From Sphagnum magellanicum (Eukaryota; Streptophyta; Sphagnopsida; Sphagnales; Sphagnaceae), in assembly GCA_021904315.1 (NCBI GenBank), contig CM038922.1, positions 15,971,347 to 16,035,346 on the forward strand: a stretch of 64,000 nt of DNA, read 5' to 3'. Shown in pieces: positions 221 through 57,465 of this stretch. The notes beneath the pieces are model-generated. The model searched no databases and had not been told where the DNA came from. It saw nothing but the letters and a program-made list of their open reading frames with translations. Numbering within the stretch: position 1 is the first letter of the stretch; each line of letters begins with the position of its first letter. Both the position numbers and the translations under genes were made by a program.

Positions 221-1164
221 GGGAAAACCAAGTAAGGGTTTTGATTGTGTTGTATTTCCATCCTTTGGAACCTTAAACTTCATATAGAGCTATTTGCTAC
301 TTGTGGATTATTATTGCACTTTAAACCAAGTATCACTTCACATCTTTGAGATTCATAGAATACAGGCAGCAAATTTTTCAACAAATTTCGTTGTTTTTAA
401 AAAAAGAAACTTGGGGAATTAATGGAGAAATGTGTTTCTCTAGTGTAAATTCTACTAATATTTATTTTTCTACAAATGAATCACAAAATTATTATGTCAC
501 AAAATTGAAAATTTAACCCTGAAATATGGGTACTTGGGAATTTAGTTTTTCTAACATTCTACGATGACATTAGTATCCCTTTCTTTGAAAAATAAAAAAT
601 AATGTCTTTCACCTATCACTTCTTTAAACTTAATTGAAAATGGATTATTAATTATTAATCAGAAGAAGACTCAGACTCCCATTTTAATGCCCACAAAATA
701 AAATAAAATAAAAATTCAACATCAAAAAAGTCTAACTTTTTTCCTTTGAATTGTTCTTTTGTGTGAAATTACTAACAATGTTTTAAATGTTGGCCTAAAA
801 TCTGACAACTCCCCAGAAGAGGCTGCTGAACTTTCACAGTGACAGGAGCTGGACTGGATTGTAACTTTGTAAAGAAAACTAGAAAATGCACAATTTTTCA
901 TAAGCCCATAGGTAGTAACTTGGCATCCTTTATTAAAATGTTTATATGACTTAAATAATAAAAAATTAGGACTTAAGATTCTTTTTGACAAATTAAAACC
1001 CAAACATCTTGCAGATCTTATACAATGTGATCTTATTACATGTGCACAATATTATAATCAAATCATATGAAATCTTTTCGTACATTGTGTATGAAAGATA
1101 ATTTAATTTTTGGGCATTTATCAAAAAAATTCTTTGTTACAAAATTTCAAAGTCATGAAAGTTA

Positions 1165-2300
1165 ACGTGAACATGGACTTTTATGGGTTGCAAATGCACC
1201 AATTTATGGTTTGGATTCAAACAATACAATTGAAAACTTTGTGAAAAAATATATATCATATGATAATAATAAACTAACATCCAATTTTCGTGAAGTTCAA
1301 ACACATTGTCACAAAAAAACTTGTAGGAAGAAAAATCAAGCCGTTTGTCGATTTAATTTTCCATGGCCTCCCATGGAAAAACCACAAATGTTTTAACCAT
1401 TCCCAATGGAATGTTTAATCCCTTCAAAAAGGGTTCATTTAGGTGAAATTAACAAAAACAAATTTGATGAATGTAATAAAATTGATTTACAAACAACGTC
1501 TATATCACTTAGCACATGATTAAAATTGCTTTCTATAGATAAAAAGACATACATCAATGCGTTACAAGTAAATTTCAATATACCAATTTGTTTTTTACAA
1601 AAATTATGTAAAGACATACAAACAAATCCCTTTGGTATTCACATTGGAAACCTTTGGCAAGCAAACATAAATGTTCAATTCATACTTGGCCTTATGCTGT
1701 AGCTAGTTATTGCACATCTTATCTAACAAAAATAGATAAAATAATGACGAAAGAGTTGAAAATTATAATTATTAGTTATTATGAAAACAAAATTGAAGCA
1801 CATATTCACATTCGAAAGATGGGAAATGATTTTCTTAGTGCTCAACAAATGTCAGCACAATTAGATACATATATTGTGTTGTCTATACCACTGTACCATG
1901 CATCTAGAACATTTAAATTCATTAATACATCCCCATTACAAGAACATGCATTTGTATTTTAAAATGTTGCATCATTAAAAACACTTCCTTTGGACTTTAT
2001 AAATATTATGTGTTTGTCGATCATTGATAAATACATCAAACGACCTAACTATTTATCTAACATTTCTCTCATTGAATTTGTTGCAAATTATGACATTGTG
2101 AATCTTAGGAAAAAAAGAAAAAAATCTCATATAATTTGTTATATGCATTATAATGAACATTAAGACCCAGAAATTTATTATTATTGTTTATTCCTTTTTT
2201 TGATACTAAACATACATTCAAAGGTGACCATTTCACATGGAATGCGATATATAACATGCATGAAATACAAATCAATTTATTAAAAAAACATTTATGTACA
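1165..2300 (+). pseudogene. Rep (HUH endonuclease) remnant of the Helentron
   Basis: Near 1,165-1,200 one frame reads REHGLLWVANAPIYG, matching the segment that contains the second histidine of the HUH motif; the first histidine is not preserved. An ORF at 1,211-1,396 continues with the conserved block KYISYDNNKLTSNF...VQTHCHKKTC and VCRFNFPWPP. After a frameshifted stretch, 1,654-1,962 holds YAVASYCTSYLTKIDK and MSAQLDTYIVLSIPLYHASR followed by FINTSP, a signature shared by Helitron Rep proteins. Frames after 2,040 give RKKRKKSHIICYMHYNEH and then DPEIYYY, resembling the Rep-helicase linker. At least four stops or frameshifts are present. The protein would have nicked and joined single-stranded DNA at the transposon ends; here it cannot be made. 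Confidence 0.8.
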
Positions 2301-2317
2301 ATTTTAATAGTAATAAT

Positions 2318-4112
2318 CACTACAAGGAATTTACATATTAATGACTACTTTTTTCAATTAATTTTCAGTCGTAAATGCCACATGTGACTATAATTCACTC
2401 TAGTCACTTTATACAAATTGCATAAAATTTTAGTTGTAAAAAACAATATGTGGAATAATACATGGCACCAAGTCACAATGGTAGTCGCATGAAAATGCAA
2501 CTTACATGAACATTTCATCCATCCAATTAGCTTATGTGGTGTTGTTGTTTTATGACAAAATAATGTAGTTGCATTAATTATATAAATAATATAAAATATT
2601 CATTATTTAAATATTAAAAATTATATATATATATATATATGTTTTATATTATTGATAATTTGATTAATTTCAACTTATAAGTTGTTGACGTGTGTCATTA
2701 CCTAGGTTAGACTAAAAGCTTAATTTAGGTTATTAAATAGGCCACCTAGTCCACTTAGTAGGCTACGTAAATAAAAAATATTTGGTCAACTTACCACCGT
2801 TGACCACAACCCATGTCATTTGTGAAAATTCATCCTTGGACCCCAAGGATGGAAATCAACTCCTTTACCACCAAACCATCTCACTTTTTGTGACAATATG
2901 ACAATGTGTATTCTATTTACCTTATTTCATTCAAAACATTATACAAAACATCATTTTCAATATTTGATATCTTATTAATAATTGGTCCAAATGACAAGAT
3001 TTAAAGTTTAATTTGAATTTTTTTTCAATAATGTACACAACTATATATTTTTTCTTCCAAAAATGAAAACTAAATTGAAAAGAAAAATATTTGAATTTTG
3101 TTATTGAATACCATTTCAATGACCATTCCTTGGAAAAAATTAATTCAAGCACATGATTTATGAATGGAAAAAAACTTTGTGGATAATATAATAACAAATA
3201 AAATTGCATATTTTGTATTTTAAACTTTCATTTCATTCTAAAACTTACATTATACAATTTTGTGTTTGCATATCATAATTTTAATAATAAAATTTAATTT
3301 AGATGTGTGATATATAATATATTCACATATAATAGTTATAAATGGATATAAATAAATTATAATAAAATTATAATAAAATATCTTATATTAATTATATTTT
3401 TTCTTATAATATATTAGAATTGTACCAACAAAAAATAATTTAAATATTTGATATATAATTTAATCACATATAAGGTTTATAAATGGATCATAAATTAACC
3501 CTACTACCTAGCCTAATAACTAGATTAATTACATAATCTACCTTATTAAGTTATTAATTTATACAAAAACATTATCACATATTAATTACCCCTACTATTT
3601 ATTATTTAACCCATGTACATACTTTTTACTATATATCCTATTTAATTACCACCTATTATTTACCTTAATTTATAAATAAACTAATTGCATAGCCTACCTA
3701 ATTAATTAATTAAACATAACATTATTTCATTCAACACAATAAAACACCTACTAATAATTAACTTATTTATATACTAGTACCCAATACTTACTACCTATTA
3801 CTTAGCCTACCTAATTAATTAACTAATAAAAAAACACTATGATATATCAATATGATAAATTTTAATGTTGGAAATTTTGAATAATCGTCCATATTTACCA
3901 TTGCCATGGGTCCTCTAAAGTTTCACAAACCTCCCAAACCTTACTACACATTTAATGGTTAGTTCATTAAAAAAAACTAAGGAAAAAAATCAAACCATGA
4001 AATCCAACAATTTCATTGGCCAATTCATTTTTGTTATATTTAATTTCATGTGCATTTGTAACTAGGATTTATAATCACAATTGAAGTTGAATAAGATGTC
4101 ACATGATGTCTA
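2318..4112. mobile_element. CACTA-like insertion candidate
   Basis: Starts CACTACAAGGAATTTACAT, the usual terminus of plant CACTA elements, and ends with TAGTG. Its first 250 bases carry repeated TGAC/GTCA-type motifs, as in CACTA subterminal regions. It interrupts the Helentron between the Rep and helicase parts, where the spacing is about 1.5 kb longer than that protein needs. The interior is AT-rich without a transposase. Flanking triplets (AAT on the left, GTT on the right) do not form a target duplication, so the right boundary is doubtful. Confidence 0.38.
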
Positions 4113-4560
4113 GTGGTTTATGAACCACATCCCAAGTTGCAAAAACAACTATATTTTCATTTATTTTGAAATGCCATTAAAAATAAATGATATACATCCA
4201 CTTTTCATCAAAACTTTCATCCAAATGACATTAATCACAAGTCACAAATTAAACCAGTTTTTAGTTGTTTTTATGATTACAAATCATTTTTACCATGGTA
4301 CCATGGAGGATAGTCATATCAATAGTTGAAAAAATGGTTGATTTGGACACAAGTCGCAAATGTGTGGGTTGGTATGAATAGAATTCCTTTTAATGAATGC
4401 ATACACAACAAGTTGGGAAAACATAGAATCATAAGCTCTTGAATTAGCAACCAAAAATGACACTAACATATGGATGGATAAATTTCCAAATGCAAATTAG
4501 GTTTTTTTCACAAAATATTACTGATTGTACTAGAATGGAACCATATAACATTCTGTAATG
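4113..4560. other. Stretch with no recognised gene
   Basis: AT-rich sequence between the CACTA-like end and the start of recognisable helicase. It may contain the decayed Rep-helicase linker of the Helentron, but no motif supports that. Confidence 0.4.
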
Positions 4561-7131
4561 AATATATTGTTAACCTATGTATAGGTGTCTCCATTATTCC
4601 TAATTCAACCAATATTGATGTTCAAGACCAAATTATGCCTACCAATGAATTCCATTCATTACTTCAAAAAGTGAATAATGAACATATTATATTTTATGAT
4701 GTCATGTATAGAAAAAACAAAATCCAAATGAACCAATTCAATTATTCATTACTAGAGGTGTTGGTACAAGTAAACTTTCACATTAATTTTTTTAGTTCAA
4801 GCTTTGATACGTTTTTATAATAGACATCGTAATTTAGACCCTTTAAAAAAGATAGCTTTGTTCATGGCATATACTAAAAAAGTAGCATTTAACATTGACG
4901 GAATTACAATTCATTCAAATATTTCTATACCAGTTAATTGTAAAGATTTATCATCATTAAATTTAGAAAAATTAGATAATTTAATTAAAAAATATGACCA
5001 ATTACAATTAACAATATTAAATGAAATTTCATTAATAGGGAAAAGAATATTAAAATTTATTGATCCTTGATTAAGATCAATAAAATGTATTCACATCAAA
5101 TTCTTTAGAAATCTTGATGTAATTAACCCTAGGGAATTTTATCAAGTTTAACTAGTTCATGATGTAGGGGTTTTCAAAATTAATGTTAACAACATTGATA
5201 GTTTAGTTCAAATTTTTTGGATGGAAAAAATTAAATGTTATGAATTGAAGTGAGTCATGCACCAAAGTGATGAAAATTTTCATTAACATCTGAAATCGAT
5301 TTCGAATTGTTACAAAAATTGTAATTAGATGTGGATACCATAAATAATCAATGTTTTCATACATCACCAAATGATCCAAAATTTCCATATTTATTTTACA
5401 CAAATGAAACAAAGGCAAAACATAATGAATTAGCTTTCTTTCAAAATGAAGGGGATGTATTTGAGTCAAAACACATAACTAAAAACCAAAAAGGGCATTG
5501 GATGAACTAGTCAAAATCAAACATTATTTTTTTTTATTACCATTTAAAATCATAGTAATAATGCCAAGTTAATCATTTTTCCTTCATATGAATGTCAAGA
5601 ACTTAGAGTAAAAATTCATTTGATTCAATTTGGTTTTAATTTAGGACATTTGAATATGTACACCTATTATTTTAAATGGAATCAATTTCGCAAAGGACTA
5701 TCAATAGGACCCATATAATATTAAAAAAATTATTGAAAAATATATAGATGATAAAAACATATTAACCACACTAAAAAAACATTCATATTTTTAAATATGT
5801 GGAATTGTAAAATTTTAAAAATTCAAAGAATATTTCAAAATTGTTTCAAAATTTTAGAACTTCAAAACTCCTTTACCACATATAAATGGCTTATAATGTA
5901 CATGATATGTTGAAAAAAGTTATAATTTAAAGTACAATAAAACTATTTAAAATGTGAAATTTTAATTGTGATGATGACTCAAAATTTTGATCATTTTCAA
6001 AATGAAACATTCAATTTGTAAGGAATCTACATAGTTTTAAATATTCATATTTATTCAATAATGACTAACAAAAAAATGTGATGCATTGGGGAAAATTTAA
6101 ATTTTTTTAAAAACAAGTTACAAAAAAATTCATTCAAAATTTCATTTATATGCAAAAGTTTTTTTTGCAAAAAAAAGACTTGCAGTCTTTTTCTAAAGTA
6201 ATTCCTTTAGCTCCTATGTTACAGGTTTTGACCCATTCATATTGTGTGCATAGGATATACATCATAATACATGTCTTTAATCATTTCGATTACAAAATGA
6301 TGCAAATTTCACATCAAATTACATTCAAAGGTTTAAGTAAAGAAAAATATGTTGGTTGCATTTTGTGTTAGAAATTATGCAACACTTGATGGTCTTGTAA
6401 TTTATGGTGCAAATGAAATGTTCCAAAGATCAACTAAAGTATTCAATTTGGTCCAAATTTTTTAAGGTGTACCAAAATTTTGTCACAATGTCACTTTTTT
6501 TTATTTTTTTATTTAGTACTTTTTTACCATGTAAAGACACATTTATGAATGATTATGATGGAATTTGGAATTGTAATGGTCTAAAATATAATCTTTTTGA
6601 AATTTTTGACAACTTTTGATTCATTATTTTTTATGGGGATCAAAATATAGGGTCAAAAAGGACTATAATAAAGACTAGGCTCTTTTCATCTTGTGTGGTA
6701 CACTTTAAAAGATTTTCACCCGTTCATAAAAAGTCATATGGATATTATTTAATAATCCCAAATGTGGTCAACTCACAAAAATAAATAATGCACATTTGTA
6801 TGAACATGAAATACATCCTACATGGACACTAATAGAACCCATATATAAAGATATTCAAATTGGTTCAAATTCTCCTCACATTATAACAAGAACACAATTT
6901 CCCATTCAATTGGTTGTAACACATACTGTACATCGAACACAAGGATTAACACTTGATTATTTAGCATTTGATCCTAATAATGTTCATAAACATGGTTTGA
7001 CATATACAAAACTTTTTCATGTTAAGAAAAAGGAAATTTTTTACCTTTTTCAACCTTTGCAAATGAAAAACATTCAAATTGATCCAAGTGTTGCCATGGA
7101 GATGTGTCGATTGCAAACCATTGCACAATAG
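4560..7131 (+). pseudogene. PIF1-family helicase domain of the Helentron, degenerate
   Basis: Frames from 4,635 read EHIIFYDVMYRKNKIQMNQF, the lead-in to the helicase core. A shifted frame at about 4,748-4,785 gives a Walker A remnant RGVGTSKL in place of GGAGTGKT. At 4,804-5,070 follow VAFNIDGITIHSNISIPVN and a Walker B-like segment LTILNEISLIGKRILKFID (DE changed to NE). Further frames to about 5,470 contain YELK, VMHQSDE and PYLFYTNETKAKHNELAFF, resembling PIF1 motif IV and beyond. The last ORF (6,796-7,131) has FPIQLVVTHTVHRTQGLTLD and HGLTYTKL, the region of motifs V and VI. The intact helicase would unwind DNA during rolling-circle transposition. Loss of Walker residues and repeated frameshifts make it inactive. 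Confidence 0.82.
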
Positions 7132-7852
7132 GATGTACTTGTCCACAAACCACATACATTTTGTGATTCACATGTACTAATTTATTCTTTCAATACTAAA
7201 TCATTTCATTTACATAAAAATGATGTTTTTTCAGAGTACAATCTCATAATAGCTCACATATTGTGCTTCAATGGAACACATTTCAACACATTAATGTGTA
7301 ATAATACATCTTGAAACATCGATACAAGAACACATTCAATGATTAATGTAAATGGTCAAAATGGTACAATGATTATATATGACAATTTCACAACCTTATC
7401 ATCACATGAAATTGTTACATTTTTAGGAGTTGAATGTATTGTAGCAACACTCAATGTAAATATAGGAAAGGCTATTCATATAGTAGCAATATACAGATTT
7501 TCAACATTATCCTTGTCAATGTTCGTAATTCACCTTCAAAGGTTTTTGGATCTAATGCCAATTTCTTGTCCCATGATAATAATTGGCGATTTCAATATTG
7601 ATATGTTTAATTAAAACTCAACACAACCAAATGAATTAAAAAAGTTTTATGGACCAATATTCAATGGAACTTCAATTTTTAAAAATTACAACAATTTATG
7701 GATCCCATATTGATCACATATGGACAAATGCACCCACTCAACAATGCATATCAAGAGTTGTTGAAGCTTATTAGATTGACCATAAACTAATATATTTTGC
7801 ATTCAAACTCCCATATTACATCCCACAATACCATCACATAAGTAAAAAGTAA
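7132..7852 (+). pseudogene. Apurinic-type endonuclease (EN) domain fused downstream of the helicase
   Basis: Directly after the helicase, frames at about 7,160-7,330 read YSFNTKSFHLHKNDVFSEYN and then IIAHILCFNGTHFN, the N-terminal part of an exonuclease-endonuclease-phosphatase fold; the catalytic Glu/Thr region appears as NGTHFN. The ORF 7,339-7,614 contains IVAIYRFSTLSLSMF and MIIIGDFNIDMFN, with the conserved GDFN motif. After frameshifts, GSHIDHIWTNAPTQQC and IDHKLIYFAFKLP correspond to the C-terminal DH region. A stop at 7,850-7,852 ends the homology. Such an EN domain is characteristic of Helentrons and is not part of classical plant Helitrons, which carry replication protein A-like domains instead. 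Confidence 0.8.
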
Positions 7853-8900
7853 GTTTTTTAAAAAAAATATTGACAATAATAATAAGGCAAAAATAATGAT
7901 GAAAGGATAGTGACCTACATATCTCCCTTAATATAACACTTGTAATAATATTTTTGAATGTTAGGGCAGAGACATTATGTGATTAGTAGCTTGTTTTGTA
8001 ACAACTAGCATGTTAGTTCATAAAAACTTGGATGATTAGTCTTGAACATTCAAAATGCCTTTTGTATCTTGCTAGTTACAACATTGTGGACCAAAGATCA
8101 AATCAAATCCAAGCTTCAACTTTCAAGGTTGCTACAATAGCACCACATTGCACAATTACCTCAGGTTCAAACCTAGTGGACCTTGATTTAAGGCCATTTC
8201 ACAACCCTAAAATTAAAGGTTTAAACCCTACTCCTTCTCTTAAATCTTATTAAGTTCACTCAATGCTCAAGCCTAAGATATTCATAGTCACAATCTTGGG
8301 TGTACACATATTGTGAATGGGGGTTAGGCTTGTGATCTTGTCCTGCAAGGACGAAAATGAGTGGCAAAAAGAACCCTATGCACATAAGATCAATAAAATG
8401 AATGGCTTAGATTGAAATGTAGAAAGGGGCAAAAATCCACAAGTGTAAAGGAAGAAGATGGTGACATGGTTTGCCATTTAAGCACTATTTGGAGAATTGA
8501 TGATGATAACAGCATTTCAATGAAAGCAATAGATCTTGAAGAAAAATACCAAATCTGGTGATGGCATAATTTGGCATGATCACTTTCTGGCTTAAAGTCT
8601 GGTTTTTTTCCTTCAAATCCTAGCTATCCTAGCTTGCAAGTGACTGGCGAAATGTTTTTGGGAGAAATTTGGCAATGTTTTGCAAAAAAAGAAAAGAAAA
8701 GTGCAAACTGCCTTTATTTTCCAGACCCTATGCCCGCCCAAAATGGAGGTCCCATATTGCCTCTCTCAGTTGGGCGAGGTGGTACTGCCTTATCCTTCCT
8801 TACATCTACAACAATGCTTTTGGAACAAGTAATAAGTTTCCACTTAGTACTTACTACTGGGCCCCGCATTTCGTGAACGCGCCCTTTGCCGTTCAATGCA
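7853..8900. other. Intergenic stretch, no gene recognised
   Basis: AT-rich to about 8,600, then more GC-balanced. Short ORFs at 8,032-8,253 and 8,634-8,914 have no recognisable motif and overlap one another in different frames, so they are not called. The last 40 bases begin the unit of the following tandem array. Confidence 0.6.
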
Positions 8901-10548
8901 CCTTTAAAGCTTGAAAAACTTTTCTTCAGTGTACATTGAGGAGAAATTTCTGACTTACCGATTTTGTACAATCTGCGGTGGGCACTGTGTACCGCCCATT
9001 AGTGCCTCTCGCAATAGTATGCGGCCGAAAATGATGGCCAACAATCACTTTTAAAGCTTGAAATTTTTTTCTTTAGTGCACGTTGAGAATAAATTTCTGA
9101 ATTACCGATTTTGTACAATCTGCGGTGGGCACTGTGTACCGCCCATTAGTGCCTCTCGCAATAGTATGCGGCCGAAAATGCTGGCCAACAATCACTTTTA
9201 AAGCTTGAATTTTTTTGCTTTAGTGCACGTTGAGAATAAAATTTCTGAATTACCGATTTTGTACAATCTGCAGTGGGCACTGTGTCCCCCCCCAATAGTG
9301 CCTCTCGCATCAGTATGGGGCCAGAAATGATGGCCAACAATTACTTTTAAAGCTTGCTTTAGTGCACGTTGGGAATAAATTTCTGAATTACCGATTTTGT
9401 ACAATCTGCAGTGGGCACTGTGTTCCCCCCATTAGTGCCTCTCGCATCAGTATGGGGCCAGAAATGATGGCCAACAATTACTTTTAAAGCCTGCTTTAGT
9501 GCACGTTGGGAATAAATTTCTGAATTACCGATTTTGTACAATCTGCAGTGGGCACTGTGTCCCCTCCAATAGTGCCTCTCGCATCAGTATGGGGCCAGAA
9601 ATGATGGCCAACAATTACTTTTAAAGCTTGCTTTAGTGCACGTTGGGAATAAATTTCTGAATTACCGATTTTGTACGATCTGCACTGGGCACTGTGTCCC
9701 CCCCATTAGTGCCTCTCGCATCAGTATGGGGCCAGAAATGATGGCCAACAATTACTTTTAAAGCTTGAATTTTTTTACTTTAGTGCACGTTGGGAATAAA
9801 TTTCTGAATTACGGATTTTGTACAATCTGCAGTGGGCACTGTGTGCCCCCCACTAGTGCCTCTCGCATCAGTATGGGGCCAGAAATGATGGCCAACAATT
9901 ACTTTTAAAGCTTGAATTTTTTTACTTTAGTGCACGTTGGGAATAAATTTCTGAATTACGGATTTTGTACAATCTGCAGTGGGCACTGTGTGCCCCCCAC
10001 TAGTGCCTCTCGCATCAGTATGGGGCTAGAAATGATGGCCAACAATCTTATATATAATTACAACAGTGGTGTCTGTCTGTGCGTCCGACGACGCTTCCGC
10101 GTTTTAATTCACTGGCGGAACCAGCCCGGACAGTCGGATTCCGAGACCGGAAACCGGCCCGGACAGTCGGATTCTGCAAACTAAAAATCCCCCACAAAAA
10201 ATCGTTTGTGCCTTTTGCCGCGTCGTGCGTGAAAACCAAGAGGCGGAATCTGCAATGCATGTATCCTGAAGGACAAGTTTTCACTGGGGCCAGTGCATTC
10301 TCCATGCTGAGAAGTTATGACAGGAGTTATTGAATGGGAGTTCTCTCTCTCTGGGCAGAGAAGAAAAATACATGATCGTGCAAACAATAAAGCTTAACAG
10401 AGCGTTTGGGGTGGCTAGAGTGGCATAGCCACGGGTTACCCACTAGTTACTTTTAAAGCTTGAATTTTTATACTTTAGTGCACGTTGGGAATAAATTTCT
10501 GAATTACCGATTTTGTACAATCTGCAGTGCGCACTCTGTGCCACCGTT
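8900..10548. repeat. Tandem array, 137-148-bp unit, nine copies
   Basis: The landmark TTGTACAATCTGC (or a one-base variant) recurs with its ATCTGC at 8,971, 9,118, 9,266, 9,404, 9,541, 9,678, 9,825, 9,972 and 10,520. The first two intervals are 147-148 bp, the middle three 137-138 bp because about 10 bases near the T-run are missing, and the next two 147 bp. The last interval is enlarged by the 401-bp Helitron insertion. Each unit contains GTGCCTCTCGCA and GATGGCCAACAAT. Units 3-8 are nearly identical, implying recent homogenisation. Open frames in the array are by-products of the period. Confidence 0.95.
10046..10446 (+). mobile_element. Non-autonomous Helitron, 401 bp, complete ends
   Basis: A single unit of the flanking array is split exactly between A (10,045) and T (10,447), the known A|T target of Helitrons, with no target duplication. 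The 5' end is TCTTATATATAATTACAAC. The 3' end has a perfect 7-bp stem (GTGGCTA 10,411-10,417, TAGCCAC 10,426-10,432, 8-nt loop) and, 14 nt later, ends CTAG, matching the CTRR rule. Removing 10,046-10,446 restores a normal unit (GGCCAACAA joined to TTACTTTT). The interior is more GC-rich than its surroundings and has two copies of CCCGGACAGTCGGATTC (10,125 and 10,158). It encodes no Rep or helicase, so it was moved by a classical Helitron elsewhere. Confidence 0.92.
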
Positions 10549-10793: not shown

Positions 10794-11817
10794 CTAGGAC
10801 CCGGGATGGTATTTTGTCGAGCCACATAGTATGATGTTGCAAAATAGCACGACAACAGATGAAAAGAGAAGTAGAGCGCCAATCGCAGCCCAGTAGTATC
10901 TATCCTTCAGTCCCACTGTCTTTTTCCCGGATTCGCCGCTGCTATGTTTAGACCTCTTCAAGAACCAGGAAAAATTAAAATTTTTTCCTTGTAGCTTCAA
11001 CTCCGCAAGCTGCGCATGTAATTTCTGCAACACTAGTTATTGTTAGCGTTGCAACTTATATTTCAGAAGCCATACAACCTTGCTCTTCGATTGTGGAGCA
11101 GTATCCAGAATAAACTTTGCCGGTTACGAAAGAGGTCAAATTGATCACCAGGTCAAATTCCAAGACAATCTATGTGTGTACCATTAGTTTTCAAGAAAAC
11201 ATTCAAGAAAAAGTTGCAATCAATAAGAACTCGACAAACAGCTTCGATTTACTAGAAGCCTAGTAACTTCATGGTCCATTCAAACCCGTGGAACCTGCAC
11301 AAGGATCTCACTTCTCTCAAGGACAATATTGAATAAAACCAGACTTGATAGAAGCGCTCACCTTTGCTTCAAGTCTCCTACGTTCGAGGTCCGTTTTCAC
11401 TTTCCCATACTCAACGAGCTTGAAATGCACGGTCACGATAGTTATTATGGAAGCTATCAGGGACAGCGACGTAGGGCCCCAAGACTGCCTGCAACTAAGG
11501 ATAGTCGACGGCGTCACAGCCGTAAGCACCGCGCCTTGGAACACTTTGTAAAACCCAATCCACTGGTACACTTCGTTCTTCGCGTCCTGCAATCGAGCTT
11601 CCGTTTGCAGTCTCAAATCCCATGAGGCTTTAAACTGCTTCTCCCACTCCTCCAAAACCCAACTCAACTGCCTGTCCTCCTTTATTTCATACAGCCGTTG
11701 CGGTAATAGAGAGTTTCTATCATTGTGCATATCAATCGTAACTTCCTCGACTGCTGTCCCATTCGATACCGGCCCGTTCGAAGGATCAGAAGGTCCTTCC
11801 AAAGTATCTCGAGTCAT
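10794..11817 (-). CDS. Two-exon gene for a two-transmembrane protein of unknown function (block A copy, intact)
   Basis: Exon 1 runs 11,817-11,362 (ATG to a GTGAGC donor, 152 codons). The intron is 11,361-11,025, and exon 2 is 11,024-10,794 (GTTGCAG acceptor to TAG, 76 codons), giving 228 residues. The N-terminal third is acidic and charged (LEEWEKQFKASWD), followed by VYQWIGFYKVFQG. A hydrophobic segment lies near residues 105-132 (SLSLIASIITIVTVHF), then a basic charged stretch. A second hydrophobic segment sits near the C-terminus (AAIGALLLFSSVVVLFC). It is probably a small membrane protein. The block B paralogue has the same exon phases. I do not recognise a named family. Upstream on the same strand, about 11,960-11,830, another frame (SQFALKTRALHIGKVL) is also similar between copies and may be a lost or alternative 5' exon. 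Confidence 0.72.
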
Positions 11818-13920
11818 TTGTAAGCACCTTTCCGATGTGCAGCGCCCTCGTCTTCAACGCAAATTGGCTCCAGCGACAGTGGTCATTCGACTGCACCGCA
11901 TCCGTAAGCAGCACGTCTTGAAACAAACCCCACTCTTTGTTTCTGTTTCTTGCCCTGTCACTACAACACAAGAGTGATTTCACAAGGACTTCCATCCTTG
12001 TTTATATATATACACATCCCCCCCCTGCCCCCCACCCCCATTTCACTGGATGTTGAGTGAATTTCAATACTTAATGAGGAAGTAATGAATTCACTGGCCT
12101 AGCCTACTGAAAAGGGGCTTGTGAACTGCACTCACTAATGAACAGGGACTCATGAACTGTACCCATTAATGAACAGGTACTAGTGAACTGTATTTTGTAA
12201 TAATGTCTGCCTCTTCAAACTGCTCCCCTCAACCTTCCAGAAGCCACACTGTAAGCCACTTACAAAATGAAACGTGTAAAGGGTTGCTGTCTTGGTGCGG
12301 CGAGGGTGAACGAGCGCCCATGTTGGTACCTTCACCTTTTAGCGTGAGGCCCCTTATTATGCCCAAAAAATTGTTATGTTTGAACTCTGAAAACCTGATT
12401 TAGTGCAAGCATGGGATATTTGTAATATTTCGAAATAATTTAAATGGACTTTGGGATTTTTACCATGGTACCATTACCATAGTGGGTGCTGGTTCACCGA
12501 AGGTGGTGCCTATGGCCTACTACAAAGGTATATCTACCAGTTTGCACTTTTTGAAACTTGAAACCCGTGGGTAAGGCAAGGTATATGTATACTCTCCACT
12601 GATGGCTCGAGAAATCATAGAATTGGTTTTGATTCTATGGGAGGTATTAAAACTCACAATCAAAGAACCAGGTCAAAGAACCAGGTCAAAGAACCTACCC
12701 TAAATCACTGGTTCTTCCATGAGAATGGTCATTTCTTTGGAAATATTTCAAAAACCTAAAACCAGAAGTTCTTTTGATTCTAAAAATATTAATCTCAGAA
12801 CTCTGGTTTTGAAATTCTGAAAATTTTCAAAAAACTGGAATTGAAGGTTCTTCTATTCTTAATTTTTCAATTAAAAAAATCTGAAACTGAAGGTTTTTAA
12901 CAAAATCAAAGAACCACAAAACACCTGTAAATACTAGAAACTTCCGGCTGATTGATACACTGTTACTTGAAAGCTTTAAGATTTTTACCATAGTACCAGT
13001 ATAGGTGCTGGTTCACCGAAGGTACTGAAAATGACTCTTTCCTACTACATAAAAGATAATTTTTTCCTGAGCTCACCAAACAACAATCTTACAAATCTAT
13101 TAATATTTCATAACTGTGTGGAGTTAGAATTATTTTTTTATGCATATGTGAGTCCTCAATCTATGTATGAAGGAAGGTAGTTTGTTTTGTTTTGTAGTTA
13201 TGAGATCCACTGAACCGGGATGCATCCGATTGTGTTCTTGGTGTCTTTGGAAAGCTCTCAATGAGGAGGGGTGCATGGGCTTGGTTCCATGACATTTGGG
13301 GTGCAAAACACCTTGAATATAAAATGTTTTTTTCATTGAAAATTAAATTAAATCATAGCTGAAAATCTCGGAGGAATTGAAATGCGCCTTTGGTGTTGTT
13401 GGAAAGATCTTGATGAACAGGATTTAATGGAATTTATTTGGTAAGATTTGGATTCAGAATGTGAGAGATACTGATTTTTAAATGATTTCTGCCACTCAAA
13501 GTTCAAATGAATTCCAAAAAACCAGGTTTTGGAAGGAAAAATGAATTGAGGATGTGGTAACACTTCAGTCAATCGCACAGGTCCCAGTAGTGTACACCAA
13601 GAAAGAATAGGTTTGTACATTTTATGTATAGGAAAAAGTTCCAGATAAAGAGCCTTCTGGATTTTTGGTCTAGTCCCCAGGCCAATAATTAAAATATAGT
13701 GGATTTTTTTCATTCGTAATGTAATGTACAGTAGGAAAAAAACACAATTTTAAATGAAAAGATGGACAGCCTAACAAGTAACTTCCAGCAGTCTGAAGTG
13801 ATTCTGATAGGTTGGTGGGTAACTTCTAACAGGTGGAAGTTACCCTGAGAGGTTGGCACCCAAACTGACAATCGGAGGGCCAATGAGGCTACCCAAACTA
13901 CAAAGAATAAAAATCAGCGA
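11818..13920. other. Duplicated noncoding part of block A
   Basis: Apart from the possible 5' exon remnant at 11,830-11,960, no gene is seen. The stretch aligns to 46,807-48,935. It includes C-rich runs near 12,018-12,038 and two similar segments reading TTTTTACCAT(G/A)GTACC with GTGCTGGTTCACCGAAGGT (12,459-12,510 and 12,975-13,025), i.e. an internal repeat. Small ORFs at 12,203, 13,130 and 13,348 are not conserved as proteins between the two blocks. Confidence 0.6.
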
Positions 13921-26963: not shown

Positions 26964-28365
26964 AACCTTTTTAAAATATGTTTTGTAGCATTTTACCTAA
27001 TTCCTTTGGAAAACAAAAACCCCATCTACACCAAATGTTATTGGTTTTCTCACCAAATCTACTCTTTGGATAAGGCACCTTAATTCATGAAGGCTTGCAT
27101 AAATCAAGTTATTAGCACTTGATCCCACCACCATATGCTCAAAAGATAGGAAAATCAATGTATGCAACCAATTTTAAACCTTCTAAACATGAATAAACAA
27201 TTAATTGGTTGTCAATAGTGAAATCACTTTATCATAAATTAGAAAAACATATTGGGGTACTATAACAATAGTTGTTTTAATGGCTATCATCGCAATATTG
27301 TGCATGTGTTGAACCATAATCCTCCTTGTTGTGTTTGTTTAATGCATTTTGGGGTTTTTTTATAAAATCAAAAAATCAAAGAGCTTTTTGTGAACCTCAT
27401 ATTCCCATCTCAATTTGCCATGCTACAAGAACAACATGACATGACAATTTCTATGTTTCTCCCTTGTCACCCCATTAACTACCAACTACAAGACTGATTC
27501 CTTACCCATTGAGGCATAAATAACCTAAATTTTTGTGTTTACAATCTTTATTGATATATCATTTCCCCTTTTTCAGTTTTTTCAAAGTTCTCTGTGCTGG
27601 CTTTGCCCTCATGGGGAGACACTATGGAATGGTGGTACTTCATTTGGTCCATCTAACACATCGTTCAAATTCTAACTCATTAATTCAAAACATAAATTAT
27701 TAAAATCTGAAATAGTGATGAACAATTCTCAAAATTGAAGATAAAATATGAGTAAAACATTTTGGTGAGAGGAGGGGTAAAATGGGATTTTGGGATTTTG
27801 GTGTTTTTTCCAATGTTGGACAATTTTAAAATGAAGGATAGATAAATATGAAAAATATATAACTGGAGGTTGTGAAAAGGTTCAAAGATTTGCCCAAAAT
27901 TGAATTTTTCCCTTTCAAAATTTCAATAACTCATACATTCACAACTTAGATCCTTTACTTTAATCTTATTATTATTATATATGAATAACCTAATAGCATT
28001 GGATTTCTATTCATCCCATCCACCTCAAAATCCCATTTGTTTTCCAAAGGAAAAAAAAGACTTTCATTGGTTTTATGGAAAATGTATAAAATAAAGTTTT
28101 AGTGCTCAAATTTAACTTAAAATATTTCCATGGGTAGGAACAATGTGAATGATATTAATTTTTCTTTTTGTCTCATGACTCATTTTGTGAAGACATTAGT
28201 TTTAAATGATGTAAACAAATTGGGACAACAAGTTCAAATTCACTTTAATTTTTTTGAAAAAACCCTAAATTTTTTGAGAGCAAAGTTGAAGATCCTTGAA
28301 CTCGATCAAAACAATTTGAAAACCCCCAAATCTAAAAACAATACCCCCAACATTATTTCCCCCCA
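26964..28365. other. No gene recognised
   Basis: AT-rich sequence. The part to about 27,500 may be more of the decayed hAT transposase, but no motif is secure. The last 240 bases carry a short plus ORF (28,130-28,384) without known features. Confidence 0.5.
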
Positions 28366-29160
28366 TGTGAAATCTCCAAAATGACAAGAAGCAAATTGAA
28401 GACTTTGGAATTTCAAAATACCAAAACAAAAACCGTCAAAGTTCACAAGAAAAAAAAGGCACATACTTCATTTTCTTGCTTGTGAAACTTCACACAAAAA
28501 ATTGAAGACCCCAAAATGACAAGAAGAAAATTGAAGACTCTAGAACTTCAAAATACCAAAACAAAAGACCCTTCAAGTTCATAAGAAGAAAAGCAAATAC
28601 CCCATCTCTCCCCTTGTGAAACTTCACACAAAAAAATTAAAGACCCCCAAAATGACAACAATAACATTCAAGACTCTGGAATTTCAAAATCTGAAAACAA
28701 AAAACTTTCAAAGTTCACAAAAAGAAAGGCACATACCCCATTTCCTCACTTGTGAAACTTCACACAAAAAAATTTGAAGACCCCCAAAATGACAAGAAGA
28801 AAATTAAAGACTTTGGAACTTCAAAATACCAAAACAAAATACCTTTGAAGTTTTCAGAAAAAAAGAAAATACCCCATCTCCCCCCTTGTGAAATTTCACA
28901 CAAAAAAATTAAAGACCCCCAAAGTGACAAGAAGAAAATTAAAGACTCTAGAATTTCAAAATACAATAACAAAAAACTTCCAAAGTTCATATGAGGAAAA
29001 GCACATACCCCATTTCCTCACTTGTGAAACTTCACTCAACAAAATATGAAGACCTCCAAAATAACAAGAAAACAATTAAAGATTCCAAAATTTCAAAATA
29101 CGAAAACAAAAAACTTTCAAAGTTCACAAAAAGAAAGGCAAATATCCCCTCACCCCCCTT
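28366..29160. repeat. Tandem array, ~135-bp unit, six copies
   Basis: TGTGAAA at 28,366, 28,481, 28,615, 28,751, 28,887 and 29,023 marks successive units; spacings are 115, 134, 136, 136 and 136. Each unit contains GACCCCCAAAATGACAAGAA, AATTTCAAAATAC and a CCCCATCTC or CCCCATTTC stretch. Copies differ by 10-20%. ORFs on both strands here repeat with the period and are artefacts. Confidence 0.93.
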
Positions 29161-29975: not shown

Positions 29976-32367
29976 ATGGATCCGTCAATGCTGATTGGGG
30001 ACATTGAGAGCAACATCAGTGGAGGAAGAGCTGGAGCAGTAGCAGCAGCAGCAGCAACTGGTGAAGAATTTTATGTGAGGTTGTCCAGTAGTCATTCTGC
30101 TCACGAGAGAAGAAGAGGGACATGGTGGAGTCTACGGAAGAGCTCTTTTCTTGCCATCTGCTGTGTGGTTGCAGTTCTGTTCGGTCTACTGAGCTTGTAC
30201 ACCGTCCTTAAGCCCAACGGAGGAGTGCCAGTTGCGTTGCCCAAGCTGCCTCTGCTGTTTGGTAGTACACTGCCCACGTTTCTTGGTGGCTCTGTTTCTG
30301 CAGGTGCAAGAAGTCGTCTTCACGACAGGACTGATAGCGAGATTGCTCTAGATCTTCAGAGGACTTCCTACCATTACCAACCTGCCAGAAACTGGATGGG
30401 TGGTAAGCAACCCAACGAGGAAGTCTGAAAAAAAAAACCCCCAATTTCCATCTTGTTTTTGTTCTTGGGTTTCGTCTCTCTAGGTTTCTGGCAACATGAT
30501 TTTCTAGCCATATCTTCCTCCCTTCCTTTTAGTTCAGGAATAGAAAGAACGCGAGGTATGATCCATCTCTCATGGTGATGATGAGAATGCATTGCAAAAG
30601 CTGATCAAAACACACATGGTGTTGGAAAGATCTCATCGAGGGCTACAACTTTGCAGTTGGAAGCTCCTCAATCCGAGCCCATACAAGGGAGTTATGAGCC
30701 TGCAAAGTCGCAAGACTCATAACTTGGGAGTTTCGGGACTCCCCACCACTCTAGCGTTATAGTCTACAAGCAGCGAGAAAGATTTTTTTGTTTTCTTCGA
30801 TTTATTCATTCATATGAAAACTCACAATTTTGCTCTTTGATTTTATGATGATGAACACTTTTTATTTGTGTGTTGTTCTTGTCATGTGGCATATTGGCGG
30901 GCAGTTGGACTTGTTGGGTACTTGTTTTGGTTCTGATCCACAAGATACAAATGGTGGGTGCTTGCTTCATACCTGTAACATAAAATCTCCCTCACTCCTT
31001 CCCTGCCATTTTGTTTTTCAGTTGCTGAAAAAATTCCAGATTCCAAGTGATCATGTTCGTGGCTTTGTCCAATTTCTTTTCTTGGCTGTGTGTATGTGAT
31101 CTGTGGTCTAGTGTATGTGTAGTTTATGGTATATCTACTGTAAGTAGTACATAGGAGAAAGTTTCAAAGAGTTGTTTCTTTGGGTTTCTGGGCTTCTGCT
31201 TTTCTCAAAAATCTCTCTTATGTTATAGTTTCTGATGTTTCGTACACTTGAGATTTTGGAGAAATATTTTCTTTAGTGAAATTTTCAGTCGTTTACTCTC
31301 AACAAAGAAATTCTAAACCTGAACCATCTGTGCTGGTTGTGTTTTGTTGTTTTCTTGGCAGCTCTCTTCTTCTACAAGGGTTACTACCATTTTTTCTACC
31401 AGTACAATATTGGTGGGGCAAGATGGGGAAACATCACTTGGGGCCACACTGTCTCCAAAGATCTCATTCACTGGCTCTACTTGGATTGGGCTATTACTGG
31501 TGATCACTGGTATGACATCAATGGGACATTCTTGGGCTCAGGTACCATTGGCCCAGATGGTACACCTTTCATCATGTACACAGGTAAAAAGCTCACAACC
31601 AAACCAGTTTTGTGGCAGGCACTGCATTTTTTTCCCCTCTTTGTTTTGGTTTTTCTAAGATTTTTTATGCATGTCAGAATAGCAGATCAAAGAGAGAGAG
31701 AGGGTCTTATTTCCATGTGTTGAAAAGGTTCAGTTTTTTGTGTCTCTGGATGTTCACATCTCCTGGACCAGATATTTTCTTAAATCCCATATTAGATCTG
31801 CATGCTAGATGTCAACTGGTTGTAATAACCCACCAACCCTCCTAGAAAGGTTCGGTAGTCTCGAGAGCTGATCAGTTGTCCATTCCTTTGTAGGTGGGGC
31901 TGAAAATCTTGAGGCAGAGCAGTCACAATGCATAGCATTGCCTGATGACCCATCAGATCCGCTTCTGAGAGTGTGGAAGAAATAAGAAGAGAATCCAGTT
32001 TTGACACATCCTGAGGGAATTGGCAAGCAGGACTTCCAAGATCCAACAAATGCCTGGCAGACAGACAATGGCTATTGGATGATCATAGTAGGTGCAATTC
32101 AGACAGGGAATGTCCCTGCTCTACAGGAGCAAAGATCTGAGGCATTGGGAGCCACTCGACCATGTGTTGCATACATTGAATGGCACAGGAATGTGGGAGA
32201 TGCAGGATTTCTTTAATGTAGATTATGAGACCGGTGCACCCTCTTCAAAGTGGGTCTTGAAAGTAGGCCTTATTGACGAGTGGCATGATTACTATACAAT
32301 TGGCTCATATGACAAGGTTGCTCAGCAGTTTATTCCTGACTTTCTGGAACTTGATTGTGGGGTTGGA
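29976..32367 (+). pseudogene. Vacuolar acid invertase (GH32), 5' half, chimeric and broken
   Basis: Exons: 29,976-30,402; mini-exon 30,945-30,953; 31,362-31,583; 31,894-about 32,367. All have GT...AG introns in matching phase 1. The product would start with a cytosolic tail and a membrane anchor (FLAICCVVAVLFGLLSLYTV, residues about 52-71), as in vacuolar invertases, then LQRTSYHYQPARNWM. The nucleophile motif NDPNG reads [21 protein letters not shown] and [11 protein letters not shown] follow. The RDP motif reads QDP (DFQDPTNAW) and WECVDF reads WEMQDF. A TAA at 31,983-31,985 interrupts exon 4, and one extra base near 32,109 shifts the frame. Similarity ends at HDYYTIGSYDK...LELDCGVG, where zinc-transporter sequence begins, so the second half of the catalytic module and the beta-sandwich are absent. 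The intact enzyme hydrolyses sucrose in the vacuole; this copy cannot. An intron at 31,584-31,893 is not usual in flowering-plant invertase genes. Confidence 0.85.
30945..30953 (+). other. Nine-nucleotide mini-exon of the invertase relic
   Basis: ATACAAATG, preceded by CCACAAG and followed by the donor GTGGGT. With the flanking G it encodes D-T-N, replacing the D-P-N of plant invertases. Its phase joins exon 1 (ending at 30,402) to exon 3 (starting at 31,362) with the residue count of the canonical motif. The position and length match the known invertase mini-exon; the Pro to Thr change is an alteration. Confidence 0.7.
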
Positions 32368-32657
32368 CAACATGGCCATCATGAAAACCACAACCATCAG
32401 CATCCTGCAGCAAGCAGCAGTGATTACATAACCCCCCACATGATCGCCCATGACAACTGCAAGAAAAAAAATCCCCACAAGAAGCACCACAATAACGAAG
32501 GAGATGGTACTAGATGCATGCAAAACTCCACATACATATTACCAGATCTGCAAGAGAGATTTTGTCAACAAAAGACTATAGAGATCCTCATCAGCAGCAT
32601 GTCTCCACATGCTTGTGCTGCATGAGTGGATGAATGCTCCTCAATTTTTTTCTATGA

Positions 32658-32680
32658 CAAAACCCTAAACCCTAAAAATG
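32658..32680. repeat. Telomere-like motif pair inside an intron
   Basis: AAACCCTAAACCCTAAAA within the MTP intron 32,507-32,723. It contains two units of the plant telomere sequence. Such telo boxes are also common in plant promoters, so this is not evidence of a former chromosome end. Confidence 0.6.
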
Positions 32681-33264
32681 CTTTTCCATCGATTCTTCAC
32701 CTCCAACTGCATGCTTTTTGCAGGGAAGCGCGTGGAGCATGAGAGTCATGAGATTATTCACGCGGGTATCGAAGAACAAGAGTGCACTAAAGAAGATGGC
32801 TGCAATGATAGCAATCATGGTCAGGAATTAGGGCAGAAACACGGCGACGATGAAGACGACGGTTCTCCCTGCCACCAGTCTTGTTCCTCCAGGCTGAAGC
32901 AGGAGCCAGCTAACATGAATACAACTGCAACGACTCCGAGGATGCTGCAAGATTATGAAAGGAGCGGAAATGAGAGACAACAGATGACTAGTCACGACAA
33001 TATCAACGTGCGAGGAGCTTATCTGCATGCGTTGGGGGACTGGATACAAAGCGTAGGAGTGATGATCGCGGGTGCACTGATCTGGTACAATCCAAACTGG
33101 CTGATCATCGACTTGGTTTGTACCCATTTGTTCTCGTTGCTGGTGTTGGCGACCACCATTCAGATGCTGCGCAACATCGTGGAGATTTTGATGGAGAGTA
33201 CCCCACGCGAGATCGATGCTGCCGCTGTCGAGAGCGGTTTGTCTAGGTCAGCCCTTTTCTTTCG

Positions 33265-33571
33265 CTGGCTATATGTAGCCAGAAAGTTATAATTAAAAAT
33301 TGAAAAGTGCTAAAATCAAGTGCTTTTTGAGTTTTTATTAGCCATAATTCGACCAAAATTTAAGAAAAATCGCCACTATTCTGTAAATGATTCAAGTACA
33401 TAGCCAAAAATATAGAAGAATTTTTTAGGGCTGGCTATATATAGTCAGAAAGATATATGTTAAAAAATTAAAAGTGCTAAAATGAAGTGCTATTTGAGTT
33501 TTTATTAGCCATAATTCGGCCAAAATTTAAGGACAGTCGCTGCTATTCTACACATGATTCAAGTACCTGGC

Positions 33572-45808: not shown

Positions 45809-46806
45809 CTAGGACCCGGGATGGTATTTTGTCGGGCCACAAAGTGCGATGTTGCAAAACAGCACGACAACAGATGAAAAGAGAAGTAGAGCGCCAATCG
45901 CAGGCCGGTAGTATCTATGCTTCAGTCCCACCGTCTTTTTCCCGGATTCGCCTGTAGACCTCTTCAAGCACCAGGAAAATTTAAAATCTTTTCCTTGTCG
46001 CTTCAACTCCGCAAGCTGCGCATGTAATTGCTGCAACACTAGTTATTGTTAGCGTTGCAACTTATATTTCAGAAGCCATACAACCTCGCTCTTCGATTGT
46101 GGAGCGGTATCCAGAATAAACTTTGCTGATTACGAAAGAGGTCAATTTCCAAGACAATCTATGTGTTTACCATTAACTTTCAAGCAAGCATTCAAGAAAA
46201 AGTTGCACTCAATAAGAACTCGACAAACAGCTTCGATTTATTAGAAGCCTAGTAACTTCATGGTCCATTCAAACCCTTGGAGCCTGCACAACGATCTCAC
46301 TTCTCTCAAGGACAATATTGAATAAAACCAGACTTGATAGAAGCGCTCACCTTTAATTCAATTCTCCTGCGTTCGAGGTCCGTTATCAGTTTTTCATAAT
46401 CAAGGAGCTTGAAATGCACGTTCACGATAGTTACTATGGAAACTACCAGGGACAGCGACGTAGGGACCCAAGACTGCCTGCAACCAAGGGTATTCGACAG
46501 CGCCACACCCGTAAACACCTCGCCTTGGAACACGCTGTAAAACCCAATCCACTGGTACAAATCTTACTTAGCGTTCCTCAATTGAGCTTCCTCTTGCAGT
46601 TTCGAATCCCATGAGGCTTTAAAATGCTTCTCCCACTCCTCCAAAAGCAAAGTCAACTTCTCGTCCGTCTTTATTTCATACAGCCGTTGCGCTAATAGAG
46701 AGTTTGCATCATCGTACATATCAATCTTAACTTCCTCTACTGCTGTCCCATTCGATACCGGCCCGTTCGGAGGATCAGAAGGTTCTTTCTCAGTTCCTCG
46801 ATTCAT
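45809..46806 (-). pseudogene. Block B paralogue of the two-transmembrane gene, one premature stop
   Basis: Exon 1 is 46,806-46,351 (same 456-bp length as the A copy, GTGAGC donor). The intron is 46,350-46,031, and exon 2 is 46,030-45,809 (73 codons plus stop; three residues shorter than A around KRSTGESGKK). A TAA at 46,566-46,564 (codon 81) replaces the Asn codon of the A copy, in NAK-stop-DLYQWIGFY. The rest of the frame is open, both splice sites are kept, and hydrophobic segments near the middle and C-terminus are conserved. It is either a young pseudogene or translated only as an 80-residue N-terminal piece. It lies head-to-tail, 476 bp upstream of the 170-residue gene. Confidence 0.8.
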
Positions 46807-48937
46807 TTGTAAGCACCCTTCGGATGTGCAGCGCCCTCGTCTTCAACGCAGATTGGCTACAGCGACGGTGGGCATTCGACTGCGCCGCATCCATAAGCAG
46901 CACGTCTTGAAACAAACCCCACTCCACTGGGACAACTCGTTCCCACTCTTCAATCAAGTCTTTTGTTTCTGTTTCTTGTCCTCTCAGTACAACACAAGAG
47001 GGATTTCACTGGATGTTGAGTGAATTCCAGGACTTAATGAGAAAGTAATGAATTCGCAGGCCTAACCTAGTGAACAGGGAGTGAATTCCAGGAGTAAGTG
47101 AGAAAGTAATGAATTCACTGGCCTAGCCTAGAGAACAGGGACCGGTGAACTACACCCACATTTTGTAATAATGTCCCCTCAACCTTCCTAGAGCCAACTG
47201 GACCCACATTTTGCAATAATGTCTGCCTCAGTTCAGAATAATGTCCCCTCAATCTTGCAGCGGCCACATTGTAAGCTACTTACAAAAAGAAATATGTAAA
47301 GGGTTGCTGTCTTGGTGCCGCCAGGGTGAAGAAGCACCCATGTTGGTACCTTCACCTTTTTGCGGGAGACCCCTTATTATGCTCAAAACAATTGTTATAT
47401 TTGAACTCTGAGACCCTGATTTAGTGTAAGAATGGGATATTTGTAATATTTCGAAATAATTTAAATGGATTTTGGGATTTTTACCATGGTACCATTACTG
47501 ACATGGGTGCTGGTTCATCCAAGGTGGTGCCTATGGCCTACTACAAAGGTAGATATCTAACAGTTCTCACTTTTTGAAATGAGAAACCGGTGGGTAAGGC
47601 AAGGTATATGTATACTCTCCACTGATGATGGTTCTAGAAATCATAGAATTGGTTTTTATTCTATGGGAGGTTTTTAAAACTCACAGTCAAAGAACCAGGT
47701 CGAAGAACTTACCCTAAATCACTGGTTCTTCTGATGAGAATGGTCATTTTCTTGAAATTTTTCAAAAACCTGGAACCAGAAGTTCTTTTCATTCTAAAAA
47801 TATTAATCTCAGGACTCTGGTTCTGAAACTCTGAAAATTTTCATAAAACTGGAATTGGAGGTTCTTTTATTCTTAAGTTTTTAATAAAAAAGTCTGAAAC
47901 TGAAAGTTATTAACAAAATCAAAGAACCACGAAACACCCCTAGATACTAGATACTTGTGGCTATTTGAAACACTGTTACTGATAAGCATTGAGATTTTTA
48001 CCATAGTACCGGTATAAGTGCTAGTTCACCAAAGGTACTGAAAATGACTCTTTCCTATATATAAAAGATTTTGTTTTTGAGCTTACCAAACAACGATCTT
48101 ACAAAATCTATTAATATTTCATAACTGTGTGGAGTTAGTACAAAAAATTTATGCATATGTGAGTCCTCAATCTAGCTATGAAGGAAGGTTGTTTGTTTTG
48201 TAGTTATGAGACCCACTGAACTGGGATGTGTCAGATCATGTTCTTGGTGTCTTTGGAAAGTTCTTGAGGAGGAGTGCATGGGCTTGGTTCGATGACATTT
48301 GGACTAGTGGTGCAAAAGTTCTTGAATATTGAATGATTTTTTCACTGAAATTAAATTAAATTGTAGCTGAAAATTTCGAACGAATTTGAATGTAGCTTTG
48401 GTGTTTTGGAAAGATCTTGATGAGCAGGATTTAATGGAATTTATTTGGTAAGATTTGGATTCAGAATGTGGGAAATATTGATTTTTAAGTGATTTCTGCC
48501 GCTGAAAATTCAAATAAACTCCAGAAAACCAGGTTTTGGAAGGAAAAATCAGTTGAGGACATGGTAACACTTGAGTCAACAGCACAGGCCACACTAGTGT
48601 ACACTAAGAAAGAATGGGTTTGTACATTTTATGCATAGGAGAAAGTTCCAGATATAGGGCCTTCTGGATTTTTGGTCTAGTCCCCAGGCCAATAACTAAA
48701 ATATAGTGGATTTTTTTCCATTTGTAATGTATTGTAGGGTTCCGAGCAGGAAAAAAACGCAATTTTAAAGGAAAAGATGGGCAGCCTAACAGGTAACTTC
48801 CAGCAGTCTGAAGTGATTCCGATAGGTTGGTGGGTAACTTCTAACAGGTGGAAGTAACCCTTCCAGGCTGGCACCTAAACTGACAATTGTAGGGCCAATG
48901 AGGCTACCCAAACTACAAAGATTAAAGGTCAGTGATA
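46807..48937. other. Duplicated noncoding part of block B
   Basis: Aligns with 11,818-13,922. A local ~60-bp duplication of GTGAATTCCAGGA(C/G)T occurs at 47,020-47,140, not found in A. No gene is seen. Confidence 0.6.
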
Positions 48938-56640: not shown

Positions 56641-56862
56641 ATGGATGTCATGGCCCAAACTAAACGACGAGCGGAAGACACTATTCATCCTGACAGAAGC
56701 GTCAAGAGGTTCAAGGAGATGGCGAAAGCCCCAAAAGAAAAGAAAAAAAATTGAAGGTAGAGGTTTGGCTTCCAAGACTTTTTAATTTCTAGAGATTTTG
56801 GTCCTTATTCAGTGGTGAAGGATGTGGGATCACAGAAAGCAGACATCACCATCGGATAGTTA

Positions 56863-57390: not shown

Positions 57391-57465
57391 AAAACATACC
57401 AAAGCTCTAGTTCTGAAAGGATTTACACGAATGATTCTAATGAAGAGGAAATAGGGTTATATGCT

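Follow-up and report, generated by a model that had tools for sequence, protein, structure and literature searches.

The window analysed here is a 64,000-nucleotide stretch of the genome of the moss Sphagnum magellanicum (C16:15971347-16035346 in the host assembly searched, which holds 438,994,042 bases in 31 contigs), and near its start lies what is very probably the relic of a rolling-circle transposon of the Helitron2/Helentron group. Three-frame translation of the window placed a Rep domain, a PIF1-type helicase and a GDFN-type endonuclease in that order, all on the (+) strand, as the original prediction had described. Sequence in common with dispersed copies of the same family (blastn blocks at 81–89% identity, and a shared 3′ end) delimits a 5′-truncated Helentron-type relic at 921..7995 on the (+) strand, starting at about 921 and ending at about 7995 rather than at the 1150 and 7852 first proposed. 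Element DNA makes up four blocks when compared with the dispersed copies, at 921-2317, 4391/4396-5461, 6235-6448 and 6723-~7995, and these are separated by three later insertions, none assigned a strand, that blastn comparison did not find in the dispersed copies. Insertion 1 (2318..4395) has CACTA-like ends, opening with CACTACAAGGAATT and closing with its near inverse, AATTCCTTTTAATG, with AAT flanking both sides. Insertion 2 (5462..6234) has short inverted ends resembling GAGTCAAAAC and ATT on both sides; the ends of both insertions were placed by eye. Insertion 3 (6449..6722), to which no type was assigned, is seen as a blastn gap. About 3.1 kb of the relic's interior is inserted DNA, and ~3.95 kb is left of an element of near 10 kb. 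The 5′ part including Rep motif 1 is gone from the relic, while other copies extend several kb upstream of 921; with this part absent, three insertions and broken frames, the copy is not the nearly complete one originally announced.

The remnants of the HUH Rep domain (1142..2163, +) carry frameshifts and stops. Rep motif 2 at 1145-1177 reads FQSHES*REHG in the window, with versions like FQSCGSQHDHG in related (kin) copies, and the tyrosine-motif region at 1664-1731 reads NINVQFIL / PYAVASYCTSYLTK, NINVQFIL (1664-1687) falling in the open reading frame (ORF) 1520-1702 and PYAVASY, from 1690, in ORF 1612-1962, both on the (+) strand. The first part of the PIF1-type helicase (4396..5461, +) includes ORF 4774-5070, which matched PF05970 (E = 1.7e-7 in Pfam, across ~4834-5061). 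The middle of the helicase region (6235..6448, +) is a blastn block shared with dispersed copies, and the C-terminal part, with the HTVHRTQGLTLDYLAFD block (6723..7131, +), was recognized by locating window pieces in kin copies and by alignment to the helicase-endonuclease ORF of one of them, L047 (52% identity over window 6730-7128). The endonuclease of the Exo_endo_phos kind (7132..7850, +) shows an ETH-type block, here NGTHF, and GDFN at 7585-7596 in ORF 7315-7614 (+), with HIDHIWTN and DHK, noted by eye, in another frame; the endonuclease piece in the window measures 99 amino acids. At the 3′ terminus (7945..7995, +), an inverted-repeat copy, AGGGCAGAG, is followed by ~22 nt to the end, where kin read CTTG and then T's. 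In Pfam, the raw window Rep pieces matched no relevant family and the raw endonuclease piece gave only a weak match to PF14529 (Exo_endo_phos_2; E = 0.092). Among kin, an uninterrupted 156-amino-acid Rep stretch of L046 matched PF14214 (Helitron_like_N; E = 5e-15), as did six of six Rep rows (best E = 1.2e-17), and of 16 endonuclease rows four matched PF14529 with E no higher than 1, the best at 1.2e-5. The first 96 residues of the L047 ORF weakly matched a Dda-like helicase family in PHROGs (E = 8.6e-4), where Rep had no match.

The window copy is a member of a local duplicate set on C16, as insertions and upstream DNA are shared with the other C16 copies: L029 and L033 contain all three insertions, L030 and L031 those within their reach, and the sequence upstream of 921 is also common to L029 and L031. 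This cluster of duplicated relics (the window, L029, L030, L031 and L033) spans 15.97-16.22 Mb and holds further 5′-end pieces of the element family at 16.147, 16.167 and 16.202 Mb. The window itself contains a separate 5′-end fragment of the same family (27592..29160, +), with its 5′ terminus at ~27592-27598 and then a 136-bp tandem array at 28376-29160.

Ten protein pieces taken from the window were looked for in 20 copies of 9.9 kb each, all picked for an endonuclease match (18 with the best endonuclease rows apart from the window's own, and two from more distant rows; four are local C16 duplicates). The other pieces recurred colinearly: E1, the first endonuclease piece, in 19 copies, H3, the last helicase piece, in 18, the other helicase pieces H0, H1 and H2 in 16 each, N1 and the Rep piece R1 in 14, and the Rep pieces R2 and R3 in 13. 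Across the genome, an endonuclease row follows on the same strand, 1.5-9.5 kb downstream (median 3.3 kb), in 63 of the 150 Rep-family rows listed. By comparison, 1 row had the endonuclease on the wrong side, 0 and 1 had it on the other strand, and random placement, with 20 Mb assumed per chromosome, gave a mean of 0.26 (maximum 2); the Rep and endonuclease figures are among the matches listed (150 each), and some copies count as two rows. In L047 a 309-amino-acid open frame continues from the end of the helicase across the endonuclease. With 128 of 1026 candidates scored, this frame had at least 129 genome matches, including one to the window at 6937-7731, unbroken across the helicase end and the endonuclease (33% identity, E = 9.2e-33, four stops). 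From the colinear recurrence, the Rep-endonuclease pairing and the joined open frame we conclude that the endonuclease belongs to the rolling-circle element and lies C-terminal to the PIF1 helicase. The Rep-helicase join is known from order and spacing and the helicase-endonuclease join from the open frame, and most likely all three domains sat in one master protein.

These results bear on two readings that would take the endonuclease, or the whole element, out of the picture. An unrelated long interspersed nuclear element (LINE) whose N-terminus had landed beside a Helitron relic would fit the E of 0.092 obtained for the raw window endonuclease, given that PF14529 (‘Endonuclease-reverse transcriptase’) covers LINE endonucleases too. 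Order and spacing are, however, constant in dispersed copies on many chromosomes and an open frame joins helicase to endonuclease; moreover, the element ends ~140 bp after the endonuclease, which leaves no room for a reverse transcriptase. We rejected an adjacent LINE on the colinear arrangement repeated on many chromosomes, and consider it very improbable. The second reading is that the assembly was contaminated with DNA from an animal, a fungus or an oomycete; Thomas et al. 2014 suspected contamination in plants, where, in the portion of that paper drawn on here, the few Helentron hits were inseparable from contamination (PMC4067079). Kin endonuclease rows are nevertheless present on contigs C1-C20, the 15 contigs with a known length measuring 17.5 to 36.3 Mb, and on this spread we rejected contamination, whose probability we regard as vanishingly small; the element's presence in a plant genome, part of the original prediction, is borne out.

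The copies we inspected have decayed. Within the window's own family, divergence of the helicase-endonuclease region at the three codon positions is about equal (0.160, 0.162, 0.138), whereas comparison with more distant families shows the lowest divergence at position 2 and the highest at position 3, both for helicase-endonuclease (0.488, 0.345, 0.583) and for Rep (0.452, 0.312, 0.510), figures that are pooled over pairs and carry no significance test. This contrast suggests that the protein was probably under selection while the families diverged, and that these copies have decayed since. Relatives of the element were to be sought in the host genome according to the original prediction, and many kin copies were found; none of the 20 fetched stretches held an intact one, their longest open frame being 316 amino acids, although no exhaustive genome search for an intact copy was made.

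The relationship of Rep was assessed in a tree of 13 rows, eight of them Helentron-type moss sequences and five canonical (four moss and the bat Helraiser). The Helentron-type moss Rep separated from the canonical rows, Helraiser included, at 100/100 support; L050 was flagged for its long branch. In the part of Thomas et al. 2014 consulted, an S between G and P in motif 2, as opposed to L, is given as a quick test for Helentron versus Helitron (PMC4067079). We found S at this position in seven of eight kin rows and, by eye, in the window relic, and L in L050 and in five of five canonical rows; the residue after the S in kin is Q, E or X, not P, and in L052 the S follows D, not G. Helraiser matched a 613-amino-acid canonical moss ORF at E = 4.8e-149 and a 150-position Helentron-type profile at 0.0039, with query lengths and methods that differ between the two, and was the sole match in PDB (7lcc) to a canonical moss Helitron. 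Kin endonuclease was near none of 60 canonical Helitron rows (the first 60 of 150 listed PF14214 rows). Two scans of viral contigs for Helentron relatives found none. The host genome also has at least 150 strong PF14214 matches (150 of 576 candidates scored), the eight inspected being canonical Helitrons, and two of the matches lie in stop-free frames of 1001 and 1508 amino acids.

To locate the termini, we used window 27450-28300 as a 5′ query, which gave 61 genome matches. Twenty-four of these start at query position 175 or below outside the local C16 set, 17 of them at query 143-149, corresponding to window 27592-27598. The element ends are sharp: the majority 5′ end over 14 copies is TTTGTTGGCTTTGCCCTCAGGGGGAGAGACTATGG, with unrelated DNA before it, and the majority 3′ end over 13 dispersed copies is GTTAGCAACTTG, followed by T and then unrelated DNA. 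TTT at the 5′ end is present in 1.00/0.93/0.93 of 14 rows, and the two T's after CTTG in 0.92/0.77 of 13 rows; the majority ends show no 5′ TC and no CTRR 3′ end. Near the 5′ end, CTTTGCCCT returns inverted 22 nt before the 3′ end, a 9-nt match between the majority ends; of 5000 mononucleotide shuffles, 15 gave a match at least as long. The 5′ repeat folds onto the sequence just downstream (mean z −1.83 over 14 rows, with z −1.4 or below in nine, against mononucleotide shuffles). Among the matches listed, Rep and/or endonuclease lie within 25 kb downstream of 16 of the 24 5′ ends and upstream of none. Distances from 5′ end to endonuclease are 8.2-11.5 kb in 8 of 14 pairs, from which we put the full element at ~10 kb, 13-22 kb in 5 and 0.6 kb in 1; this last is L042, a deletion derivative with both ends ~1.3 kb apart. 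With T's at the boundaries, asymmetric inverted repeats and no TC...CTRR, the termini fit Helitron2/Helentron better than a canonical Helitron, although the evidence from folding is divided.

Several observations weigh against assignment to this group. F/Y-x-R near Rep motif 2 is present in none of eight moss rows, the published column being known from description only, and the motif of L050 reads RGLPHDH, which is Helitron-like. At the termini, the inverted repeat was tested after it had been noticed by eye and is visible in the column majority only; within single elements it does not exceed what shuffling gives (sum 30 against a mean of 28.4). Such loss may be expected of decayed copies, but it is still a weakness. 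The window's own 5′ fragment has no hairpin (z 0.02), only a weak one is seen at the 3′ end (17 rows, mean z −0.80), and six 70-nt end folds gave z of −1.84 to +0.87 (two 5′ ends at 0.84 and 0.74, four 3′ ends from −1.84 to 0.87). For the endonuclease, the L047 helicase-endonuclease ORF contains no Pfam family at E up to 0.1 and the endonuclease profile had 0 matches to PDB sequences at E up to 1, so that what carries the call is the motifs together with low-scoring family matches among kin; the L047 ORF itself gave two chance-level PDB rows only, Nup133 and Rab-2B. Lastly, neither RPA nor OTU was matched in three broken upstream ORFs scanned (other upstream ORFs were left unscanned), proteins that are common but not universal in Helentrons.

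Could the relic then be a canonical plant Helitron (Helitron1) that has been misread? The strong Helitron Rep matches in the same genome, canonical where inspected, and the RGLPHDH of L050 speak for it. Against it stand the separate clade at 100/100 with Helraiser on the canonical side, the gap between the two Helraiser scores, majority ends that have neither CTRR nor 5′ TC, and canonical rows that have no kin endonuclease nearby. We rejected a canonical Helitron on the tree split, the termini and the endonuclease pairing, and judge it highly unlikely. Neither outcome that the original prediction had named as fatal to it was observed: Rep does not group with the canonical Helitrons of the same genome, and the colinear copies and joined frame leave the endonuclease outside any neighbouring LINE. 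A Helitron2 lineage of plants that acquired an endonuclease independently of animal Helentrons is a more serious competitor, though on balance a doubtful one. It would account for the lack of F/Y-x-R in all eight rows, and Helitron2 is known in Chlamydomonas and, by name, in Selaginella, with the endonuclease unmentioned in the part of the source available (PMC3627910). On the other side, the endonuclease sits C-terminal to the helicase and falls in the same Pfam family as in Helentrons, as far as the portion consulted describes them (PMC4067079), and parsimony points the same way. The Helentron/Helitron2 affiliation originally proposed stands as regards the non-canonical clade, the endonuclease and the fitting ends; the absent F/Y-x-R does not agree with it.

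We consider it very probable that the window holds a dead copy, truncated at its 5′ end and duplicated locally, of a rolling-circle element ~10 kb long that belongs to the Helitron2/Helentron group and whose master encoded an HUH Rep, a PIF1 helicase and a C-terminal Exo_endo_phos endonuclease. Going by what is known of the family, the HUH Rep would nick and hold the 5′ end of the element, the PIF1 helicase would unwind a strand, and the freed strand would be copied and joined at a T-rich site, with putative marks of the element ends in the 5′ hairpin and in the inverted repeat close to the 3′ terminus. The endonuclease may contribute a nick, either in the target or in the T's at the flanks. 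Thomas et al. 2014, in the text available, proposed that the endonuclease nicks the T-rich flank (PMC4067079). The T's at both ends of the moss element are consistent with such nicking.

Helentrons reportedly go back to Poulter et al. in 2003. As portrayed in the part of the literature available (PMC4067079), they share with the moss element Rep, PIF1 and then a C-terminal Exo_endo_phos_2 endonuclease, the motif 2 S of seven of eight kin rows, T's at both boundaries, a 5′ palindrome (in most moss ends), internal tandem repeats and deletion derivatives such as L042. The moss element differs in lacking F/Y-x-R near motif 2, in its land-plant host, in a 3′ inverted repeat that lies nearer the end (22 nt, against about 38-60), and in that RPA was not found in the few upstream ORFs scanned. 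Helitron2, in the available portion of Bao and Jurka 2013 (PMC3627910), resembles it in having a 5′ inverted repeat that pairs with sequence further downstream and a 3′ one placed 20-30 bp before the terminus (22 nt in moss); unlike Helitron2, the moss element has an endonuclease, and its 5′ repeat starts ~8 nt from TTTG rather than 0-2 bp. Proto-Helentron-Pi of Phytophthora infestans has a Helentron-like Rep according to the text consulted (PMC4067079), but it lacks an endonuclease and ends in CTAG, whereas the moss element has one and ends in CTTG then T. Canonical Helitrons (Helraiser, 7lcc, and those of the same genome) likewise combine HUH Rep and PIF1 helicase, but have no endonuclease, an RGLPHAH motif 2, other termini and a place in another clade.

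The moss element follows a known plan, and what is new is the host group, which is poorly documented for such elements. Rolling-circle transposons with an added endonuclease are known chiefly from animals. No report of endonuclease-bearing Helentron-type elements in moss turned up in the literature searched, which left out most subscription papers. In the element name Helitron-5_SMo, we take SMo to stand for Selaginella moellendorffii. The available part of Bao and Jurka 2013 places Helitron2 elements in Chlamydomonas and has Helitron-5_SMo among its listed Helitron2 (PMC3627910), so the extension of range foreseen in the original prediction holds for the moss copies but is tempered by a Selaginella Helitron2 already published. 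The copies anchored in chromosomes of this one moss, which fall in several families, indicate that rolling-circle elements with an endonuclease multiplied in a land plant, and they are material for dating the endonuclease gain. Tentatively, the moss families might represent a deep plant lineage of endonuclease-bearing Helitron2 without F/Y-x-R, either passed down from early green plants or having acquired its endonuclease separately. If so, the endonuclease would have been gained at an earlier date, or on more occasions, than the animal-centred picture has it.

Other features of the window lie downstream of the relic. A 137-147-bp tandem array of six to eight copies follows it shortly, at 8903-10046. 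Two similar-looking ORFs, at 11552-11977 and 46586-47023, are ~35 kb apart; no Pfam match was found for ORF 46586-47023 or for the minus-strand ORF 11320-11853 that overlaps ORF 11552-11977. At 31280-33289 are pieces of a glycosyl hydrolase family 32 gene (PF00251, E = 3e-24 and 6e-15) with an adjoining cation efflux piece (PF01545, E = 3.6e-10). A stretch resembling a long terminal repeat retrotransposon occupies 56860-60072, with matches to an aspartyl protease (E = 1.9e-4) and an RVT_1 reverse transcriptase (E = 3.2e-16), and is flanked by arrays of a near-same 47-48-bp tandem repeat at 54005-54164 and 60471-60723.

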